DNA from: Syntrophorhabdaceae bacterium
GTDB lineage: Bacteria > Desulfobacterota > Syntrophorhabdia > Syntrophorhabdales > Syntrophorhabdaceae
Reading direction: 5' to 3'
Assembly: GCA_017992765.1 (NCBI GenBank)
Contig: JAGOOA010000005.1
Coordinates: forward strand, 1-55,625
DNA: 55,625 nucleotides
Positions 15,972-49,505 of the stretch are shown piece after piece (within the stretch, counting starts at the first letter, position 1; every line of letters starts with the position of its first letter). The position numbers were made by a program, and so were the translations under genes. Below the pieces are notes generated by a model that saw nothing but the letters and a program-made list of their open reading frames with translations, was not told where the DNA came from and searched no databases.

Positions 15972-17348
15972 CTACTGCTCTTTTCCTCCCACAACGATCT
16001 CCGGGATGCGGAGCGTGGGCTGGGCGTCGGATACGGGCACGCCCTGGCCGTCCTTGCCGCAGGTGCCGATGCCGAAGCCGAGGTCGCTTCCTACCATATC
16101 TATCCCCTCAAGGACCTTCAGGCCGTTGCCCATCATCGTCGCGTTCTTTATCATGGGCCCGACCTTGCCCTTCTCGATGAGATAGCCCTCCGATATCTCG
16201 AAGACGAAGTCTCCCCTCACCGTATCGACCTGTCCGCCGCCCATCTTCACCACAAAGACGCCGTCGTCCACAGACGCAATTATTTCGGCGGGATTGTCTG
16301 TGCCGGGAAGGATGATCGTGTTGCTCATCCGGGGGATAGGCCTGAACCTGAAGGACTCGCGCCTTCCGTTCCCCGTTGATCTCATCCCGTACCGCATTGC
16401 GTGGAAACGGTCAAAAAGGTAATTCTTCAGGATGCCCTTCTCGACAAGCACGGTCCTTTCGGACGGCACCCCCTCATCGTCATAGGCATAGGTCCCCCTC
16501 ATATACGGCAGGGTCTTGTCATCGACCACGCTGACAAGGGTTGAGGCGATCTTTTTCCCGAGCATTTCCTTGTAGCAGGAGAGCCCCTCCATGGCAAGGT
16601 CCGCCTCAAGCCCGTGGCCGATCGCCTCGTGGATCATCGTGCCGCCTGCCTCTGATCCAAGGACGACCGTCTTCGTCCCCATCGGGGCCTCCACAGCTGC
16701 GAGAAGACCGCTCAGCCTTTTCGCCGTCTTCCGTGCCATCGTCTCGATGACCTCTTCGGTGAAGAACTCAAAGCCATAAAAACCGCCTATCGCCTCATAC
16801 GCGGTCTGCATCTCGCCATTTTCTTCACCGACAACGAAAAGGGTCAGAACGACCTGCCTGCGCCTGTCCTCGATCCCTGCCCCCTCGCTGGTAAAAAGCC
16901 TGATATCCTGGCTTGTATCCCGGTACATCACCCGCACCTGCCTGATCTTCGGCTCCATTTTCCTCACCATCGACTCCAAGCCCTTGACCATGGCGATCTT
17001 TTTCCCCATATCGACCGCCTCGGGGTCAACGGCAATTGCAAAGGAGTATTCTGCGCTGGCATTCCTGTCCCGCCTTACGGCCTTCCCTTCCCCTTCCCCC
17101 GAAAACCTCCTCAATTCCACGGCGAGCTCCAGGAGGCGTTTTTCCTCGAAGGAATTCGTCGTAGCATAGAACGTCTTCCAGGGATGGACAACGCGGATGC
17201 CGACCCCCTTGTCAACGCCCTTTTCCAACTTCTCTATCCTTTCCGACTCGAGCTGTATGTGGGTGTACCTCTTCTCCTCGGCAAATATATCGCCGTAGAG
17301 GCTGTCCCCTCCCATCAGGGCATTCAAGATATTTGTCTCATCGAACAT
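15972..17348 (-). CDS. tldD: TldD-type metalloprotease
   Basis: The 458-residue protein belongs to the TldD/PmbA family: N-terminal SVDDGxFV-like region lies late (IIASVDDGVFVVKMGGGQVDT), and the zinc-binding HExxxH is in MIHEAIGHGLEADLAMEG. Family members with TldE process modified peptides such as microcin B17 and degrade CcdA. The TldE partner is not in this window. Of three possible starts (TTG 17354, ATG 17351, ATG 17348) the last has GGGAGG at the right distance (six bases). It overlaps the end of the DUF4911 gene, so the two are coupled. Confidence 0.94.
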   Translation of the reverse strand: MFDETNILNALMGGDSLYGDIFAEEKRYTHIQLESERIEKLEKGVDKGVGIRVVHPWKTFYATTNSFEEKRLLELAVELRRFSGEGEGKAVRRDRNASAEYSFAIAVDPEAVDMGKKIAMVKGLESMVRKMEPKIRQVRVMYRDTSQDIRLFTSEGAGIEDRRRQVVLTLFVVGEENGEMQTAYEAIGGFYGFEFFTEEVIETMARKTAKRLSGLLAAVEAPMGTKTVVLGSEAGGTMIHEAIGHGLEADLAMEGLSCYKEMLGKKIASTLVSVVDDKTLPYMRGTYAYDDEGVPSERTVLVEKGILKNYLFDRFHAMRYGMRSTGNGRRESFRFRPIPRMSNTIILPGTDNPAEIIASVDDGVFVVKMGGGQVDTVRGDFVFEISEGYLIEKGKVGPMIKNATMMGNGLKVLEGIDMVGSDLGFGIGTCGKDGQGVPVSDAQPTLRIPEIVVGGKEQ

Positions 17349-17559
17349 CATCAACCTCCCGCAGCGTGATGCCGTAGTTCGCCATATCTGCTACGATCCC
17401 GATCGCAGCGTCTTCGAAACCCGAAGGATAGATCAGCTCTATTAGGCCCTTATCCCCGTCGAGGACAGAGAAGACCCCCACATCTTCGTAGGACTCAAGG
17501 ATCGCCTTGAAGAACCCTATCCCTTCCCTGTTTATTATATAGCGTCTTGTCTTCTCCAT
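17338..17559 (-). CDS. DUF4911 family protein, 73 residues
   Basis: A small acidic protein with a pattern like known DUF4911 members: RRYIINREGIGFFKAILESY, then VLDGDKGLIELIYPSGFED and IVADMANYGITLREV. The fold resembles a small alpha-beta domain; biochemical role unknown. It overlaps the following tldD by about 11 bases, and this DUF4911-TldD pairing suggests a shared job in peptide processing (inference). No strong ribosome binding site precedes the ATG. Confidence 0.75.
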   Translation of the reverse strand: MEKTRRYIINREGIGFFKAILESYEDVGVFSVLDGDKGLIELIYPSGFEDAAIGIVADMANYGITLREVDDVR

Positions 17560-17689: not shown

Positions 17690-18670
17690 CTACTTTTGTT
17701 GCAGCATCTCTACGAACGCCTCTACCCTGAGCTTCGTCCTCGTGTCGAGCGCCCGCGGCAGGTCGCCCTCGACCGTAAGGATCGGCACCCCGATGGTCTC
17801 CCTGAGGATCACGTCCTCTATTGCCCGGAAGCAGAACGCCTGCACATAGTGGATGATGCCCTTGACATCCCTCCTCCCGATCTCCTCCTTTATGTCCGCC
17901 AGCCTGGCAAAGACGCCGTAAGGATAGGTATAGGAGAGGTAGCGCTCCACAATATCATTCGCGGCAAAGGGAAGCGAGAACTGCCTCTGCGTCTCGTTAT
18001 ACACAACATGGCCCCCGACGCTGCCGATGAATTCGTACAGATCGAGCAGTATGGGCGGAACCCCGATGTACCCGATGCTGACCCCTTCAATGCCCTGCCG
18101 GGCCTCGGCCTCTTTCAAAAATTCCTCCGCCATACGGCGATATTCCCTGTAATCGCCGAGCATATCGGATGCCCTGACGAGCCACAGGTGGTTCTCGGCG
18201 CCCGTCACCCGTCTTTCCTTCCAGGTCATCCTGTCGATCAGGGCAAGGCTGGACCGCACGCCCTCTATCTCATCTTCGACGCGGGCAAGGGCCTCCCTCT
18301 CCACAACCAGCTCCCTCATGAGCTTTTCGACCTCCCTCGCGAGGGCCTCTTTATCCCTGTCGTACGGATATGAAAAAGGGATCGTTCTTATCCCCTTGTA
18401 CCGAAGTATCTCCGCCAGCGCCTGCGTGTTGCTGCAGTCGCCCTCCATGACGGTTATTACCGCATCGACAGCCTTTTCCATGACGACGCCGTAGATGCCC
18501 TTTATCCAGTTGCACATGCTCTTGGGGAATCCGTCCCGCTCAGCCCTTTCGATGTAGCGCATCGGTTCCGGGTCGGCAATAAAGATATTATTGAGGTCGC
18601 AGGGTGTATACCCTCCTGCGAATACCACTTCAACCGGTATGGTCGTTGTAAAGCCGATAGTCCTGCTCAC
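17690..18670 (-). CDS. 2-hydroxyacyl-CoA dehydratase D-component-like Fe-S protein (HgdB family)
   Basis: The start is the GTG at 18670, which overlaps the rsmA stop as GTGA; sequence upstream in this frame is only a shadow of rsmA. The 326-residue product starts SRTIGFTTTIPVEVVFAGGYTP... and has three cysteines in the places expected for the [4Fe-4S] cluster of HgdB-family proteins: Cys24 (GYTPCDL), Cys53 (PKSMCNWIKG) and Cys79 (MEGDCSNTQ). Known relatives are the catalytic subunits of 2-hydroxyacyl-CoA dehydratases and benzoyl-CoA reductases, which work as pairs with an ATP-driven activator. This one is shorter and alone, in an operon with tsaD and rsmA, so its substrate is unknown. Confidence 0.85.
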   Translation of the reverse strand: MSRTIGFTTTIPVEVVFAGGYTPCDLNNIFIADPEPMRYIERAERDGFPKSMCNWIKGIYGVVMEKAVDAVITVMEGDCSNTQALAEILRYKGIRTIPFSYPYDRDKEALAREVEKLMRELVVEREALARVEDEIEGVRSSLALIDRMTWKERRVTGAENHLWLVRASDMLGDYREYRRMAEEFLKEAEARQGIEGVSIGYIGVPPILLDLYEFIGSVGGHVVYNETQRQFSLPFAANDIVERYLSYTYPYGVFARLADIKEEIGRRDVKGIIHYVQAFCFRAIEDVILRETIGVPILTVEGDLPRALDTRTKLRVEAFVEMLQQK

Positions 18671-19455
18671 GGGCTGCCCTCTTCCATGGAATTCAGCAAT
18701 GCGTACATAGCCTTGAACTTCTCCGGTGCGATCTCTTCGGCCCGTACGGAAGGGAGGAAACCCATTGACGCGTAGAGAGAGGTCGTCTTTTCCTCGCCAT
18801 ACCGCCTGACGAGCGCCTGGCGCAGGTGCTTCCTCTTGTGCTCGAAGCATGTCTTGATGAAACCGGTCACGTCTCCATCCACATCGTTCCCGTCATCTCT
18901 GAAGATCATCGACACATAGGCGCTTTCTACCTTCGGAGGCGGTATAAAAAGACCTGGCTTAAGATACAGGAGGATCTTCGTCCCGGCAACAAGCTGGCAG
19001 ATAACCGACAATGCCCCGTAAGACCTGTTGAAAGGCTTGCTTGCCATGCGCTCTCCGATCTCCCGCTGCACGGTAAGGTGAGCGCTTTTGATCACCGGCC
19101 TCTCCCCGATCAGCTTGAACAGGATCGGCGCCGTGATCTTGTAAGGAATATTTGCCACAACTTTTATGCCTTTCCCGGCACTGAACTGGGTAAGGGGAAT
19201 GTCGAGAACGTTGCCGTATATGACCTTAAGGTTCTTATATTGATCCGCTAAGGGATCGAGATGGTTCCGAAGCGACGTATCGAGCTCAACGGCAAAGACC
19301 TGCCCCGCCTTCTCAACAAGGGCCTTCGTAAGGTCGCCGTGGCCTGCCCCTATCTCGACAACAACGTCATCTCTCCCCACCTGCGCGAGGCTCACCATCT
19401 TTTTCAGGATATTTTTGTCTTTGATAAGATGCTGTGAGAGGCTCTTTTTCAACAT
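18667..19455 (-). CDS. rsmA: 16S rRNA dimethyladenosine transferase
   Basis: The 262-residue protein is RsmA (KsgA): N-terminal SLSQHLIKDKNIL, SAM-binding VVEIGAGHGDLTKAL, the catalytic NIPYKITAPIL (NLPY-type motif) and RPVIKSAHLTVQREIGERM, with PFNRSYGALSV after it. It dimethylates two adjacent adenines in helix 45 of 16S rRNA. It begins within the last seven bases of tsaD and ends four bases into the HgdB-like gene, so the three genes form one translationally coupled unit. Confidence 0.96.
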   Translation of the reverse strand: MLKKSLSQHLIKDKNILKKMVSLAQVGRDDVVVEIGAGHGDLTKALVEKAGQVFAVELDTSLRNHLDPLADQYKNLKVIYGNVLDIPLTQFSAGKGIKVVANIPYKITAPILFKLIGERPVIKSAHLTVQREIGERMASKPFNRSYGALSVICQLVAGTKILLYLKPGLFIPPPKVESAYVSMIFRDDGNDVDGDVTGFIKTCFEHKRKHLRQALVRRYGEEKTTSLYASMGFLPSVRAEEIAPEKFKAMYALLNSMEEGSP

Positions 19456-20459
19456 TTTATAAAACCTGGAAGGGCCATCCTTGAAAATGCCTTCGCGTCC
19501 AGCGGTGAAACGATCCCCCTCCGAAGGTAGTAATGTCCGAGCAGGGCAACCATGGCGCCGTTGTCGGTACAGAACCCCGGCGAAGAGAACATGACAGCAA
19601 GGCCCCCTTCCTTGCCCCTTTCCCGGAACACTTCCCGCAGCCTTCCGTTGGACGCCACCCCACCGCCTACAACGACCCTCGGTATCCCGGTCTTTTTTAC
19701 CGCCCTTAATGTCTTCAGAAAAAGCACATCGATGACCGCTTCCTGAAAGGAAGCAAGAACGTCGGCGATATTCTCTTCGTCGATGCGGTGGCTCTTTGCG
19801 TAGTTGATGAAGGCGGTCTTTAGCCCGCTGAAGCTGAAATCGCAGGTATTGTCGTCCATCATGGGCCTCGGGAACATCACGTGGTCTTTTTTGCCCTTCC
19901 TGGAATACTCTTCGATGATCCTCCCGCCGGGATACCCGATAGCAAGGTATTTTGCGATCTTGTCAAAGGCCTCTCCTGCCGCGTCATCCTTCGTAGTGCC
20001 CAGGACGCTATACCTGCACGGCTCGTCTATTCGGAGGATCATGGTGTGCCCTCCCGATACGACAAGGGCGATGAAGGGGAGATCAACATCCCTCTCGAGA
20101 AAGATGCTCATCGCGTGGGCCTCGATATGGTTTACCCCGATCAGGGGCTTTTGCAGTGAGCAGGCCAGCCCTTTGGCAAAACAGAGCCCGATAAGTACGG
20201 AGCCGATAAGCCCCGGCCCTGCCGTTACGCTGATCCCATCGAGGTCGCGGTAATCAGCCTTCCCCTCCCTCAGCGCCTCCTTTGCGATAACGTCTATAAA
20301 TTCCAGATGCTTCCGCGAGGCGATCTCGGGAACCACACCCCCGAAGACAGCATGGAGGTCCACCTGGCTGGAAACAACGTTGGAAAGGATCTCTTTCTCA
20401 TCCCTGAGAAGCGCAACAGAGGTGTCGTCGCAGGAGGTATCTATGCCGAGAATTAACAC
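19449..20459 (-). CDS. tsaD: tRNA N6-adenosine threonylcarbamoyltransferase
   Basis: The 336-residue protein has the TsaD signature: LILGIDTSCDDTSVALL at the N terminus, VTAGPGLIGSVLIGLCFAKG, the metal-binding GVNHIEAHAMS (HxxxH), LVVSGGHTMI, FSFSGLKTAF and VVGGGVASNGRLRE. It makes the t6A modification at position 37 of ANN-reading tRNAs. The start is a GTG without a visible ribosome binding site; the spacer before it is filled with repeats. Two RNA-modifying enzymes, TsaD and RsmA, thus share one operon. Confidence 0.96.
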   Translation of the reverse strand: MLILGIDTSCDDTSVALLRDEKEILSNVVSSQVDLHAVFGGVVPEIASRKHLEFIDVIAKEALREGKADYRDLDGISVTAGPGLIGSVLIGLCFAKGLACSLQKPLIGVNHIEAHAMSIFLERDVDLPFIALVVSGGHTMILRIDEPCRYSVLGTTKDDAAGEAFDKIAKYLAIGYPGGRIIEEYSRKGKKDHVMFPRPMMDDNTCDFSFSGLKTAFINYAKSHRIDEENIADVLASFQEAVIDVLFLKTLRAVKKTGIPRVVVGGGVASNGRLREVFRERGKEGGLAVMFSSPGFCTDNGAMVALLGHYYLRRGIVSPLDAKAFSRMALPGFIKC

Positions 20460-27420: not shown

Positions 27421-28290
27421 CTATTTCCTGACACTGACCGGTATTCCTGATTCGCACGGCACCTTTGTCTGGCACAGGCCGCAGCCATATGCCTCAATGC
27501 CGTATGCATCCCTCGCGTAGCGGACGATAGGCCCCTCTAGGTAATCGCGGCATTTTTTCTTGTCGTGCCCTTTTTTGCTCACCGCCCCTACCGGGCAGCG
27601 CTTAATGCATGCGCCGCAGCTCCCTTCGCTATAGAAGAGGCAGTAGGCGTGATGGTCCGCATAAGGTCTCGTCGTAGGGGGAATGGAAATACGGGCCACA
27701 ACCGACCCGCATCGCACGGCTTTACCGACCGGCGTGATAAGTCCATCGCAGAGCCCAAAGGTGCCAAGCCCTGAAACGTGCGCAACGTGCCGCTCAGACC
27801 AGGTCGATGCCATCCCATAGGCTTGCGACATTTTGATGGTGAATAAGGGAGAGTTTTGAGGCGCAACCGCCTGGTACCCGGCATTTTGCAATAGCCGCAC
27901 CACTTCTGTGCGGAGGGCGACGTTAAACTCCTCCCCGAATTTTCTCGATCGCACCCAGCGTTCAGACCCGAACGTCTCCTGTTTGCGGTTGTCCTCCTTT
28001 GTAGCCTCTGTCTGTGGCAAAACCCAGGAGATAACCGAAAGCTCTTCCGGCCTGACGTCTGTTTGAGGAAAAGTAATGTTGAATATCTCTTCCGGCAACA
28101 AGTGGAAATCGCCTATCATCGATTTGATCTGTGCATAAAGCGTATCGTCACCCCGTGAAAAGCCTATAAGAGGTTCGCCCCACGCGATTTCACCATTCTC
28201 GGTCCGGAGAGAGTTTTGGGGCGATCCCAAAAATTCCCTGATACTTCTCTCAATCCACTCTCCTATGGCCTTCCTGCTCTTTCTCCTCAT
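27421..28290 (-). CDS. Epoxyqueuosine-reductase-like 4Fe-4S protein
   Basis: The 289-residue protein starts at the ATG at 28290, with AGAGGGG upstream; a TTG six codons earlier is less likely. Its C-terminal part has a ferredoxin-like pair of clusters, CGACIKRCPVGAV with a later Cys (KKCRDYL), and CGLCQTKVPCESGIP. The middle resembles QueG-family proteins (RHVAHVSGLGTFGLCDGLITPVGKAVRCGSVV region, residues about 185-215). QueG reduces epoxyqueuosine in tRNA with cobalamin, but the cobalamin residues cannot be confirmed by eye, and many anaerobes encode paralogues of unknown role. Electron-transfer enzyme of uncertain substrate. Confidence 0.75.
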   Translation of the reverse strand: MRRKSRKAIGEWIERSIREFLGSPQNSLRTENGEIAWGEPLIGFSRGDDTLYAQIKSMIGDFHLLPEEIFNITFPQTDVRPEELSVISWVLPQTEATKEDNRKQETFGSERWVRSRKFGEEFNVALRTEVVRLLQNAGYQAVAPQNSPLFTIKMSQAYGMASTWSERHVAHVSGLGTFGLCDGLITPVGKAVRCGSVVARISIPPTTRPYADHHAYCLFYSEGSCGACIKRCPVGAVSKKGHDKKKCRDYLEGPIVRYARDAYGIEAYGCGLCQTKVPCESGIPVSVRK

Positions 28291-28597
28291 GTTTACCCCT
28301 CTGGTCAATGGCTCTGTTCATTTCATTACCACTTGAAATCAGGTTATGCAACCAAAAAGAATGGCGCGAAGCATACGGGAAGCGACAATCACTCGTAACG
28401 ATTCTGCAAGGAATGTATTGAACACGTGCATAAGCTGTAATGCCTCGCCTTCGTAATACGGCAGAGAAACAAAGAGGCCTGCAGCGGGAAATGCTATAGA
28501 CTTAAGGACTTTTTACACACAGGAACAAGGTGTGGCGATGGAGTCTAATGTATAGTATAATAAGTCGGTTTCAATGATCAAAATAAAGGGGCGGGTA
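28291..28597. other. 307-base spacer, no gene seen
   Basis: Between the divergent QueG-like and nitroreductase genes. It holds a TATAAT at 28556-28561 facing the nitroreductase, but no matching -35 box at the right distance. Small palindromes only; I see no RNA gene or open frame worth calling. Confidence 0.5.
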
Positions 28598-47549: not shown

Positions 47550-48461
47550 CTACCTGCTCCCCTTTTCGGCAAGGGCCTTTCCAAACAGCGCTGCGCCGAT
47601 CGCGCCTGCGATCTGCGTATCAAAGGGGAACCCTTTATCTGCATAGTACCGATTGTGCCACTTGGCCTCACAGGCCTCGAAGCCGAGCTCTTGCGTGAGC
47701 CTTTTCACGACGCCCTGGTTCTTTGCGATCCCGCCGGTTATGGCAAATTCTCTTTCCACGTTTACCTTTTCGAGGAGCGATAGGACCCTGTGCGCCATTG
47801 CGGAACAGTATGCTGCGAGGACTTTCTCTTTAGGCCATCCTGCGCGGAGCAGTGTCCCTGCCTCCGATTTTGCGAAAATAACGCATGTCGAGTTCACTGG
47901 AGGAGGTTCTTCGGCAACGCTCAAGGACATGTCGCCAACATCTTCAATGGGAACGCCGAGGAGGTCCGCGAAAACCTCCATGCCCCGGCCTGTGCCTGCC
48001 GCGCACTTGTCATTCATCAGAAAGGCAACGACCTTGCCTTTATCGTCGATCTTGATGGCCTTGCAGTCCTGGCCGCCCATATCGAGGACGGTCCGCACCG
48101 CGGGGCCATACATCCAGTTCGCGCCCTTTGCATGGCACGCGATCTCTGTTATTGCCCTGTTGCCGAAAGGCACATTGACGCGGCCGTAGCCTGTGCCAAC
48201 GGTAAAATGAATATCTCTCAACGCCAGGCCGGTTCCTTCTGTTGCCTTGTTGAAAGCGTTGATCGCGCTGTCCGGGCTGCTGGAGCCGGTCCTCATATTG
48301 CCGTAGCAGTAAAGCTCGCCGTCTACCATGATAACGCCTTGCGTGCTGACGGAACCGACGTCAACGCCTGCCGTGATAAGTTTGCCCTTCTTCCAATCGA
48401 TCTCAGGGTTTGCCCATCGAGATTCCGGCCATCTCCAGAATTCCTTCTTTCCGTCTGCCAT
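47550..48461 (-). CDS. bzdQ: BcrA/BadF/BzdQ-type ATPase subunit (benzoyl-CoA reductase type)
   Basis: The 303-residue protein is an ASKHA-fold ATPase with phosphate loop ITAGVDVGSVSTQGVIM, adenosine loop TVLDMGGQDCKAIKI, and the two cysteines that share a [4Fe-4S] cluster between subunits, NDKCAAGTGRGMEVF and STCVIFAKSEAG. A 30-residue N-terminal extension rich in Trp (EFWRWPESRWANPEIDWKKGK) is, as I recall, typical of BzdQ. Such subunits couple ATP hydrolysis to electron transfer into benzoyl-CoA reductase. It is followed in the operon by nothing and preceded by the BzdP-like gene; the reductase subunits are absent from the window. Confidence 0.85.
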   Translation of the reverse strand: MADGKKEFWRWPESRWANPEIDWKKGKLITAGVDVGSVSTQGVIMVDGELYCYGNMRTGSSSPDSAINAFNKATEGTGLALRDIHFTVGTGYGRVNVPFGNRAITEIACHAKGANWMYGPAVRTVLDMGGQDCKAIKIDDKGKVVAFLMNDKCAAGTGRGMEVFADLLGVPIEDVGDMSLSVAEEPPPVNSTCVIFAKSEAGTLLRAGWPKEKVLAAYCSAMAHRVLSLLEKVNVEREFAITGGIAKNQGVVKRLTQELGFEACEAKWHNRYYADKGFPFDTQIAGAIGAALFGKALAEKGSR

Positions 48462-48465
48462 AGCG

Positions 48466-49245
48466 TTATACCTCCATCCTTTGCTCTGCTGCTGCGATGG
48501 CGGCGCCTATTGCGCCGACGTACTGGGGATCCGCGGGAACTCCTATTTTGATGTTCAGCTCTCCCTCTATGGCTTTGATAAATCCCCCGTTGAGGGCCAT
48601 GCCGCCGATCGCGGCTACGTCTTTCTCAACGCCGACCCTTCTCATCATGGACACGATCCTGTCCCCGATCGCATTGAGCACTGCCCGTGCGATATCCGCC
48701 TTTGCGGTCTGCGAGTGGATAAGGGACACAAGCTCTGACTCGGCAAAGACCGCGCATTGGGCGTTCATGTCGATCTCTTTTGTGGACCTGTCGTAGAGAT
48801 CACCCATTTTTTCGACCTCTGTCTCAAGGGCCCTCGCCATTGCTTCTACAAATGTTCCAGCCCCTGCCGCACATTTTTCATTTATTGCAAAATCAACGAC
48901 GTCGCCGTGCTGGCTTATCCTGACCGCCCTTCCCTCCTCGGCTCCCACATCGATGACTGTGCGGACATCGGGCATAACGAACCTGATCCCCCTTGCGTCA
49001 GCGTCCGCCTCTGTTACCTCACCCTGTGCACAATCACAGCTCTTCCTTCCCACGCCGGTAGCAAGGACCTTGCGGACATCTTTTTTTTCGGCGCCGGCCG
49101 CCTTTAGCGCCTCATTATATACATTTTCAGCGGTTGTCTTCGTATCAAGGCCTGCAGGCGCCATTGCCTTTCCGACAACCCTGCCGTCCTTCATGATCAC
49201 CGCCTTCACGTTCTTTGCACCGCTGTCTATACCTGCCGTTATCAT
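48466..49245 (-). CDS. bzdP: BcrD/BadG/BzdP-type ATPase subunit (benzoyl-CoA reductase type)
   Basis: From the ATG at 49245 (AAGGAGG six bases upstream; the longer frame has an unrelated 46-residue start) the 259-residue protein has ITAGIDSGAKNVKAVIM, the second loop TVIDVGAEEGRAVRI (the BcrD/BzdP variant of DxGGQD), and cluster cysteines in NEKCAAGAGTFVE and NAQCAVFAESEL. It would form a heterodimer with the BzdQ-like protein encoded four bases downstream. ATP-driven electron activation of an aromatic acyl-CoA or of a 2-hydroxyacyl-CoA dehydratase is the known family role; the partner enzyme is not visible here. Confidence 0.85.
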   Translation of the reverse strand: MITAGIDSGAKNVKAVIMKDGRVVGKAMAPAGLDTKTTAENVYNEALKAAGAEKKDVRKVLATGVGRKSCDCAQGEVTEADADARGIRFVMPDVRTVIDVGAEEGRAVRISQHGDVVDFAINEKCAAGAGTFVEAMARALETEVEKMGDLYDRSTKEIDMNAQCAVFAESELVSLIHSQTAKADIARAVLNAIGDRIVSMMRRVGVEKDVAAIGGMALNGGFIKAIEGELNIKIGVPADPQYVGAIGAAIAAAEQRMEV

Positions 49246-49505
49246 CCCGTACCTCCTTGCGACGGTTTTTGCATTCCTGACGTTTCCACGGGGGCATCGT
49301 TCCGTGCCGCTATCATTCAATGCCAACCTTGTGCTTAAATTAACAAAATCAAACGATGTTATCAACACATAAAGGGGGGACATTTGTTCGGCGTGCGCCT
49401 AAACTCAATAAACGCTGTCAACGGGTTTCATTGCTGACCCCTTATGGCTGCAAAAATAGCTCATACCAGTGGCCGGCAAGCTGGCAAGAATAGTGGCTTT
49501 TGTGC

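Follow-up and report, generated by a model that had tools for sequence, protein, structure and literature searches.

A HgdB-type Fe-S protein of Syntrophorhabdaceae as the reductase half of a putative ATP-driven preQ0 reductase

The hgdB-type gene that overlaps rsmA in a Syntrophorhabdaceae bacterium (contig JAGOOA010000005.1; the 55,625 nucleotides analyzed are here referred to as the window) quite likely encodes the reductase half of a putative ATP-driven, two-component Fe-S enzyme that converts preQ0 to preQ1 and replaces QueF. In other bacteria, this step, from 7-cyano-7-deazaguanine (preQ0) to 7-aminomethyl-7-deazaguanine (preQ1), is carried out by QueF, an unrelated NADPH enzyme. It also appears probable that the HgdB/activase pair, with a site-differentiated [4Fe-4S] cluster, forms a second class of biological nitrile reductase, one that replaces QueF in many anaerobic bacteria and serves queuosine synthesis in at least one archaeon with queA near the gene. 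The preQ0 reductase reading rests on protein family, fold, invariant cysteines, pairing with an activase, some queuosine (Q) gene neighbors, near exclusion with QueF, and decay of the gene in a QueF-bearing family.

The gene and its genomic neighborhood

The features of the window that bear on this reading are as follows.

15972..17354, minus strand: tldD, downstream neighbor (PmbA_TldD domains)
17338..17559, minus strand: short DUF4911-type ORF of 73 aa, downstream neighbor (from its translation and locus clustering)
17690..18670, minus strand: hgdB-type gene, HgdB/HGD-D Fe-S protein of 326 aa (PF06050)
18667..19455, minus strand: rsmA, 16S rRNA dimethyltransferase (TIGR00755, 225.9 bits; cutoff, 171)
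19449..20459, minus strand: tsaD, t6A transferase subunit (TIGR03723, 408.5 bits; cutoff, 296.1)
47550..48461, minus strand: BadF/BcrA-type activase (bzdQ type), candidate shared activase (TIGR03192, 395.1 bits; cutoff, 380.2)
48466..49383, minus strand: second BadF-type activase, candidate shared activase (TIGR00241, 214.1 bits; cutoff, 125.4)

A sequence-only reading had proposed a 326-residue HgdB-type protein whose GTG start overlaps the rsmA stop, and both the coordinates and the PF06050 match agree with it. The GTG (18670-18668) and the rsmA TGA (18669-18667) share the motif GTGA, and the frame holds 326 residues plus a stop; rsmA and tsaD also overlap one another. An alternative frame of 386 aa begins with an ATG at 18850. 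Because this ATG falls within rsmA and orthologs (for example, in locus L049) begin close to the GTG position, we consider the GTG the better start. The DUF4911-type ORF has an ortholog in locus L066 that matches PF16256 at 50.5 bits (cutoff, 29.3).

Of 395 genomes in the phylum, 117 carry a member of the hgdB-type clade, which also occurs in several other phyla and in archaea, mostly with one gene copy per genome. Within the order, orthologs were found in 42 of 44 genomes, including the present one, and one of them is a fragment only. The DUF4911-type ORF and tldD lie downstream in all 20 Syntrophorhabdia loci, and 12 of them have rsmA and tsaD upstream, so the present genome is not alone in this coupling. 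The suggestion that this short HgdB type always follows rsmA did not hold, however, since neither rsmA nor tsaD was found near the gene in any of 151 loci outside the order (tblastn with window proteins, E value of 1e-8); one of these loci, L095, is titled Syntrophorhabdaceae and groups elsewhere in the tree, and some of the 151 loci, like some of the 173 rows used below, are a single genome under two names. We therefore dropped the coupling as a functional clue. No viral relatives were confirmed and no phage records were found; among plasmid records, only that of Ilyobacter carries the gene, and its neighborhood proved decisive.

Family, fold, and cysteines

The protein is an HGD-D family member that matches PF06050 over profile positions 2 to 342 of 342 (E value of 4e-34; 119.1 bits; cutoff, 28.4). 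A Pfam search of P0001 gave this single HGD-D domain and no other, with no QueF signature (PF14489). The three conserved-looking cysteines of the sequence-only reading were borne out by alignment: exactly three of the four cysteines in the protein are invariant across all 53 aligned family members (C54, C80, and C281 in P0001 numbering, which runs one higher than that of the 326-aa protein), and the alignment has no further invariant cysteine column. The three cysteines align with cysteines of all seven HGD-D paralogs in the same genome. Locus L111 (internal stop) was omitted from the alignment and tree, and loci L090 and L123 (doubtful frames) were also omitted from the alignment (A3). On wider inspection, 170 of 173 rows checked retain all three cluster cysteines, and the three rows without them form one family, both tested genomes of which carry QueF. 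Apparent fusion proteins in G130 and G279 were rejected, as by eye their long open frames seem to arise from read-through of GC-rich sequence preceding the gene.

An AlphaFold model of the protein (pLDDT, 92.4) matches BzdN, DCCP, and HadC with Z scores of 30.9 to 32.4, and in VIA-align it matches ten BCR/HAD/DCCP entries, which share a three-domain alpha/beta fold, at Z scores of 27 to 32, with the next row at 7.2. A single-sequence PDB search gave no match at 0.001, and a profile was needed. By sequence profile, the closest known system is DCCP/DCCP-R (NF040772; 6eno, 7yyl, and 7yzm; E value of 1.5e-14), and DCCP is also tied as the closest by fold (Z score of 32.3). DCCP/DCCP-R is a two-component, ATP-driven system with a BadF-type activase. 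The HgdB-type protein nonetheless scores 38.4 bits against an NF040772 cutoff of 350, its alignment begins at DCCP residue 62, and its family conserves three cysteines where DCCP has six, for an [8Fe-9S] cluster. The protein probably holds one [4Fe-4S] cluster on its three invariant cysteines, similar to the three-cysteine [4Fe-4S] site with an open iron in BzdO and HadB.

Activases, queuosine genes, and exclusion with QueF

Outside Syntrophorhabdia, the hgdB-type gene is often followed by a dedicated BadF-type activase. Such an activase occurs in 17 of 50 genomes with the hgdB-type gene (hgdB+) and in none of 30 without it (hgdB-), and by coordinates it adjoins the gene on the same strand in 17 of 17 cases. 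None was found in 44 genomes of the order; the present genome has other activases that do not belong to the dedicated clade.

In Ilyobacter polytropus, where the HgdB-type protein is annotated "2-hydroxyacyl-CoA dehydratase," the gene opens an operon, hgdB-activase-queD-queE-folE-queC, with gaps of less than 20 bp. Outside Syntrophorhabdia, 11 of the 151 loci, from six lineages, have Q genes within ~6 kb; four of these 11 loci supplied query sequences, and excluding them leaves 7 of 147. For comparison, 3,003 five-gene control sets averaged 1.9 such loci and never exceeded 5, with the reservation that these sets are window proteins and may be harder to find in distant genomes than the Q queries. 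The neighbors include queA-tgt (G044 and G118), queC-queD-queE (L133), queD/queE (L112), queC in five genomes of family f18, and queA in an archaeal bin (L130). No Q gene was found nearby in the other 140 loci or in the Syntrophorhabdia loci, and a scan for preQ1 riboswitches at the gathering threshold found none in 25 loci. These blanks, together with the 33 of 50 hgdB+ genomes that lack a dedicated activase, count against a preQ0 reductase. In the present genome, queH, queC, and queE lie together and queA is also present, while QueF was not found.

We scored the pathway genome-wide, leaving queD, folE, and tgt aside, in 80 hand-picked genomes: 6 from Syntrophorhabdia, 44 other hgdB+ genomes chosen mainly by completeness, and 30 hgdB- genomes absent from the matches at 1e-50 (the activase count used these same 44 and 30 genomes). 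QueF, counted at 60 bits or more, is present in 3 of 50 hgdB+ genomes versus 20 of 30 hgdB- genomes (P = 9e-9, for genomes that are not independent of one another); the latter count fell from 21 on exclusion of G061, whose match scores 27.5 bits against a cutoff of 27.3 and covers positions 1 to 59 only. Among genomes that also carry queC, the numbers are 3 of 46 versus 13 of 17 (P = 1e-7; by family, P = 6e-5), leaving the QueF slot empty in 43 of the 46. QueC was counted at a best E value of about 1e-40 or better, because the tally of 75 of 80 genomes over the cutoff takes in weak partial matches; the weakest match counted (G414, 2.1e-40) has a stop, and the best one not counted (G063) is at 1.9e-6. 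The pattern of exclusion is also seen when families of a single phylum are compared. A further set consisted of 50 hgdB+ genomes taken via named loci, many of them from other phyla; here QueF exceeded the cutoff in two, clearly in one (90.7 bits) and marginally in the other (27.7 bits). QueF was scored there without queC and queA; the set comprises 50 of 60 loci after 10 close relatives were dropped, and at least two of its genomes repeat the 80, with the same contig coordinates (G428 = G261 and G457 = G216).

In two of the three genomes with both genes (G260 and G300), the hgdB-type copy has lost all three cysteines, and a dedicated activase is absent. An intact gene does occur together with QueF in G021 and the L118 genome, and four queC-bearing genomes (G047, G057, G060, and G083) have neither gene. 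Both observations count against a preQ0 reductase, and the latter indicates that a further route may exist. QueA was found in 77 of 80 genomes and in 49 of the 50 that are hgdB+, from which we conclude that preQ1 is needed. Since queC is kept in 46 of these 50, preQ0 is apparently still made; the four without a clear queC require preQ0 salvage or assembly gaps.

Proposed reaction, alternatives, and implications

The reductase would act as a putative homodimer in which three cysteines of each subunit bind one [4Fe-4S] cluster and, as in HadB and BzdO, leave one of its irons open. Many lineages have a dedicated BadF-type activase encoded next to the gene, whereas Syntrophorhabdia presumably use a shared one; in either case, the activase would use ATP to deliver low-potential electrons singly to this cluster. 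A conserved polar pocket would hold the nitrile, which would be reduced to an imine and then to an amine with four electrons and four protons, and the preQ1 product would pass to Tgt, QueA, and QueH. An ATP cost is odd here, since NADPH is able to drive the same reduction. The protein would be at most an analog of QueF, with which it shares the proposed reaction and pathway slot; QueF has a tunneling fold, uses NADPH, and contains no Fe-S cluster. Non-orthologous replacement has a precedent in the same pathway, where QueH stands in place of QueG (Zallot et al. 2017, as cited in the available portion of PMC5372724), although QueH acts at another step, belongs to another family, and occurs alongside the hgdB-type gene.

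The neighborhood and exclusion data indicate the step rather than the exact substrate, and this leaves some room for a different role in 7-deazapurine metabolism, such as making preQ1 from CDG or the amide, acting on preQ0 in tRNA, or supplying electrons to another reductase. We regard such a role as unlikely, given the retention of queC and given that in the known characterized two-component systems (DCCP, BCR, and HAD) it is the HGD-D protein that converts the substrate.

There is a slim chance that the protein is an unrelated anaerobic housekeeping reductase (of membrane, murein, or lipid; PlsA/Ger-like or linked to murI) and that the QueF pattern is a by-product of ancestry. A murI gene and a one-helix protein of ~100 aa recur alongside it in Desulfuromonadales and others, with murI near the gene in 36 of 80 loci; these neighbors, like rph, ttcA, rtcA, tgt, Mrp, ligases, and thiolase, were named by eye from translations. 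In the available text of PMC12838417 and PMC13274423, PlsA/PlsR and Ger are HGD-D/activase enzymes with a non-CoA substrate, phospholipid esters, showing that lipids can be substrates for the superfamily, but their activase and reductase domains are fused, unlike the single domain of P0001. Against this alternative, the QueF exclusion extends between families in one phylum and to other phyla, cysteine loss coincides with QueF in one family, and the invariant residues are largely polar.

A conventional role as an acyl-CoA dehydratase or benzoyl-CoA reductase subunit is very improbable. The fold is that of BzdNO (class I benzoyl-CoA reductase) and HadBC (2-hydroxyisocaproyl-CoA dehydratase), the same genome encodes eight HGD-D proteins, including related BCR/HAD-like ones, and genes of acyl-CoA type (ligases and a thiolase) were recognized by eye near the gene in a few loci (L041, L042, L116, L193, L196, L204, and L207). 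However, acyl-CoA genes are not conserved neighbors in the locus clusters, the single gene typical of each genome has no conserved or adjoining second subunit, and the clade forms a deep branch apart from the paralogs in a quick-search tree with very long paralog branches. No BcrB/C, BzdN/O, or HadB/C models were listed for the protein at an E value of 0.01. The BzdNO helix 15-32 is reported to contact CoA, and model residue 1 aligns with BzdO 36, HadC 24, and BzdN 25, so by this alignment the N-terminal CoA-contacting region may be lacking. RNA-modification and Q gene neighbors (queA-tgt, queE, and queC) had pointed to a third type of epoxyqueuosine reductase in place of QueG and QueH. This is ruled out, as hgdB+ genomes have no gap at that step: 44 of 50 carry QueH, 5 of the remaining 6 carry a QueG with a full score, and only the fragmented G123 has neither.

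The preQ0 reductase reading retains part of the original suggestion. A housekeeping role in Fe-S-dependent RNA or cofactor chemistry, rather than in catabolism, is supported by the Q gene neighbors elsewhere and by the near exclusion with QueF, but the coupling to rsmA and tsaD that had prompted it is the habit of one order.

If correct, this assignment would fill the queuosine gap in anaerobes that have queC and queA but lack queF. It would change which organisms score as Q makers or preQ1 salvagers, for which two published schemes use QueF (going by the available portions of PMC6593275 and PMC11130926). Nitrile reduction would join the chemistry of ATP-driven Fe-S clusters, and a wide clade would gain a function, such that annotation as "2-hydroxyacyl-CoA dehydratase" need not mean catabolism.

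hgdB, its neighborhood and its family

The gene under study, hgdB, encodes the HgdB-type (HGD-D) protein P0001 and is flanked as follows.

19449-20459 (-): tsaD, over the NCBIfam cut-off
18667-19455 (-): rsmA, over the NCBIfam cut-off
17690-18670 (-): hgdB, HGD-D protein of 326 aa, matching PF06050 end to end (E 4e-34)
17338-17559 (-): DUF4911-type ORF, 3' of hgdB, from translation and the profile of an orthologue
15972-17354 (-): tldD, 3' of hgdB, from a domain match

On the minus strand, tsaD runs a few bases into rsmA and rsmA likewise into hgdB, with GTGA common to the rsmA stop and the GTG start of hgdB. Coordinates and profile matches confirm the sequence-only reading of an HgdB-type frame that begins over the rsmA stop, with tsaD adjoining. 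That reading had also asked whether a short HgdB always follows rsmA, and whether the coupling is unique to one genome. It is neither universal nor unique: among the loci of the best 80 of 574 candidates, rsmA and tsaD lie 5' of hgdB in 12 of 20 loci of the class Syntrophorhabdia. Other loci of the class have a longer insert in this position, or genes that by eye belong to thiamine synthesis. Neither gene was found near hgdB in 151 loci searched outside the order Syntrophorhabdales, and the coupling is therefore not a functional clue. In one Syntrophorhabdus group (L068-L071, L074, L076 and L081), rsmA is replaced by upstream thiS/thiG/thiE-like genes (by eye). At 11 other loci (L089, L091, L122, L126, L190-L192, L197, L198, L201 and L203), from several Desulfobacterota-type lineages, a protein of ~100 aa with one hydrophobic stretch is encoded closely 5' of hgdB, with murI divergent beyond it in most (all by eye). 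At L084 and L209, the upstream gene, which follows a ~460-aa gene and which by eye we take to resemble COG3580/3581 activase-associated proteins, overlaps the start of the hgdB-family frame by about 33 bases.

P0001 passes no NCBIfam cut-off (double-cubane model, 38 bits versus 350 required). Its genome encodes eight HGD-D proteins; the other seven, one DCCP (426.6 bits, over the cut-off) and six BCR/HAD/DCCP-like proteins below cut-offs, are 15-20% identical to it. A branch with 100% support separates its clade from the five paralogues included in a tree built by a quick method, in which the paralogue branches are very long. Orthologues occur in 42 of 44 genomes of the order, its own included, although one of them, at the end of a contig, is only a fragment. 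Across the phylum Desulfobacterota, 117 of 395 genomes have a match, a single one each except in one genome (a few are fragments). Outside the order, the best 80 of 574 candidates include relatives with 48-55% identity in Bacillota (Pelosinus, Sporomusa, Ammonifex, Syntrophomonas), Nitrospirota, Planctomycetota (Loosdrechtia), Acidobacteriota, Armatimonadota, Geobacter and its relatives, and two archaeal bins; the homologue in the fusobacterium Ilyobacter is 45.5% identical.

An AlphaFold2 model of P0001 (pLDDT 92.4) matches BzdN, DCCP and HadC with Z scores of 30.9-32.4 across 312-315 residues (best unrelated row, 7.2). Structure and family are of a known kind. Across 53 members, 48 columns are invariant, mostly polar or aromatic, and exactly three of them are Cys, in agreement with the three conserved-looking Cys first remarked on from the sequence. 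These align with Cys of the DCCP chain and would hold the predicted cluster. In BzdO, the catalytic [4Fe-4S] cluster is described as held by three Cys, its open iron bearing water, and in BzdNO an N-terminal helix is described as contacting CoA (PMC11971306). Because residue 1 of the model aligns to BzdO residue 36 and DCCP residue 62, P0001, unlike BzdNO, seems to lack such a helix.

Queuosine genes and the distribution of QueF

Queuosine genes lie near hgdB in several lineages. Ilyobacter polytropus has hgdB-activase-queD-queE-folE-queC in a row with gaps of <20 bp (gene names checked, except folE, named as annotated). In genomes G044 and G118, queA lies directly 3' of hgdB and is followed by tgt (tgt and the G044 queA identified by eye and homology). 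At L133 an activase is followed by queC, queD and queE, at L112 queD and queE lie upstream of hgdB, and in five genomes of family f18 queC is 1.4-2.1 kb away. A queuosine gene lies within about 6 kb of hgdB at 11 of 151 loci, 4 of which were the source of query sequences, versus a mean of 1.9 and a maximum of 5 for control five-gene sets. A search of Syntrophorhabdia loci L043-L083 found none near hgdB. The beginning of a queA gene lies 5.6 kb from hgdB in a genome bin assigned to Thermoplasmata (L130 12584-12961); since archaea are not expected to synthesize queuosine, contamination or transfer is possible.

A role in epoxyqueuosine reduction, tested first, left no gap to fill. QueH is present in 44 of 50 genomes with hgdB, and QueG exceeds its cut-off in five of the six that lack QueH (G111, G171, G221, G244 and G414), only G123 (610 contigs) having neither; with one or the other in 49 of 50, this step is excluded. 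QueA occurs in 77 of 80 genomes. The window also encodes a protein of 295 aa that carries a 4Fe-4S motif (27421-28308, minus strand) and by score is not QueG (35 bits, cut-off 200) and falls slightly below the Fer4_16 cut-off.

QueF was detected in 3 of 50 genomes with hgdB versus 20 of 30 without (Fisher p 9e-9). The exclusion holds among genomes with clear queC (3/46 versus 13/17, p 1e-7) and when these are counted by family (1/16 versus 13/17, p 6e-5). Of 63 queC-containing genomes, 59 have QueF and/or hgdB, and 56 exactly one. In 50 hgdB-containing genomes, many of them from other phyla, that were taken from the loci of the best 80 of 574 candidates (at least two repeated from the 80) and searched for QueF only, QueF exceeded the cut-off in two, clearly in the L118 genome and marginally in the other (27.7 bits, partial). 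Fourteen control genomes yielded QueA in 9 and QueF over the cut-off in 7. The genome of P0001 itself has a queH-queC-queE row on contig C34, queA on C37 and no match to QueF; among the steps searched, preQ0 reduction alone lacks a known enzyme, and hgdB is the candidate for it.

Exceptions and decay beside QueF

Among the three genomes with both hgdB and QueF, G260 and G300 (family f84) encode copies in which all three Cys and many invariant residues are lost (28 of 62 near-invariant columns altered in G300), and both lack the dedicated activase, the BadF-type clade paired with hgdB. The Cys are gone from G338 of the same family too; they are kept in 170 of 173 rows (107 from the tree plus 66 additional loci, some being one genome under two names). 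Takeover by QueF, followed by decay of the older enzyme, would predict such loss of the Cys beside QueF. The decayed f84 copies (L203, L271 and L272, with none of the three Cys) are possibly repurposed or dying genes; that at L203 is still beside murI and the small membrane protein (by eye).

QueF accompanies intact hgdB in G021 and in the L118 genome. Four queC-containing genomes have neither: G047 (560 contigs), G083 (650 contigs), G057 and G060. The last two are near-complete and carry queC, queH and queA, and may reduce preQ0 with yet another enzyme or put preQ0 to a different use.

Activase partner and proposed reaction

A BadF-type activase lies immediately 3' of hgdB (gap ≤387 bases) in 40 of 60 loci outside Syntrophorhabdia among the best 80 of 574 candidates, versus 0 of 20 within it; L120 has a different activase elsewhere. 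The adjoining activases form a separate group (mean identity 55% among members, ≤38% to those of the P0001 genome). In the 80-genome sample, this dedicated activase occurs in 17 of 50 genomes with hgdB, in all 17 beside it on the same strand by coordinates, and in 0 of 30 without. At 1e-60, G049 alone among 60 relatives has it. A different activase would be needed in Syntrophorhabdia, if any is used. PF01869 matches above the cut-off number nine in the P0001 genome, two of them within one frame. Two adjacent BadF-type activases lie in the window (47550-48461 and 48466-49383, minus strand), the first above the bzdQ cut-off; the remaining HGD-D proteins of the genome, several of them BCR/HAD-like, are on other contigs. 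A 504-aa frame at the end of contig C38 (L186 1-1512) has two activase stretches in a layout like PlsA/Ger.

To our knowledge, QueF is the sole nitrile reductase known. In DCCP, an activase uses ATP to pass single low-potential electrons to the cluster. By analogy with DCCP and BCR, the activase would bind ATP and deliver low-potential electrons one by one to the cluster of the hgdB product, and substrate near the open iron would be reduced stepwise, four electrons being required for the nitrile. Residues D26, N28, N29, H162, E227, Q229, R230, Q231, H275 and Q278, all invariant or nearly so, may recognize the deazaguanine. BCR offers a model for cluster chemistry at an open iron (PMC11971306), and QueF is described as reducing the same nitrile using NADPH (PMC5372742).

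Within the open-licence literature, we found no publication among those listed that links queuosine with the HGD-D family and, judging by the titles listed, no alternative preQ0 reductase was evident; a search of this scope does not establish novelty. Organisms without QueF are treated as preQ1 salvagers in two publications. The operons, the mutual exclusion with QueF and the decay beside QueF, all read from genome sequence, make it quite probable that the hgdB product reduces preQ0 to preQ1, a proposed new function in which it would replace QueF in queuosine synthesis.
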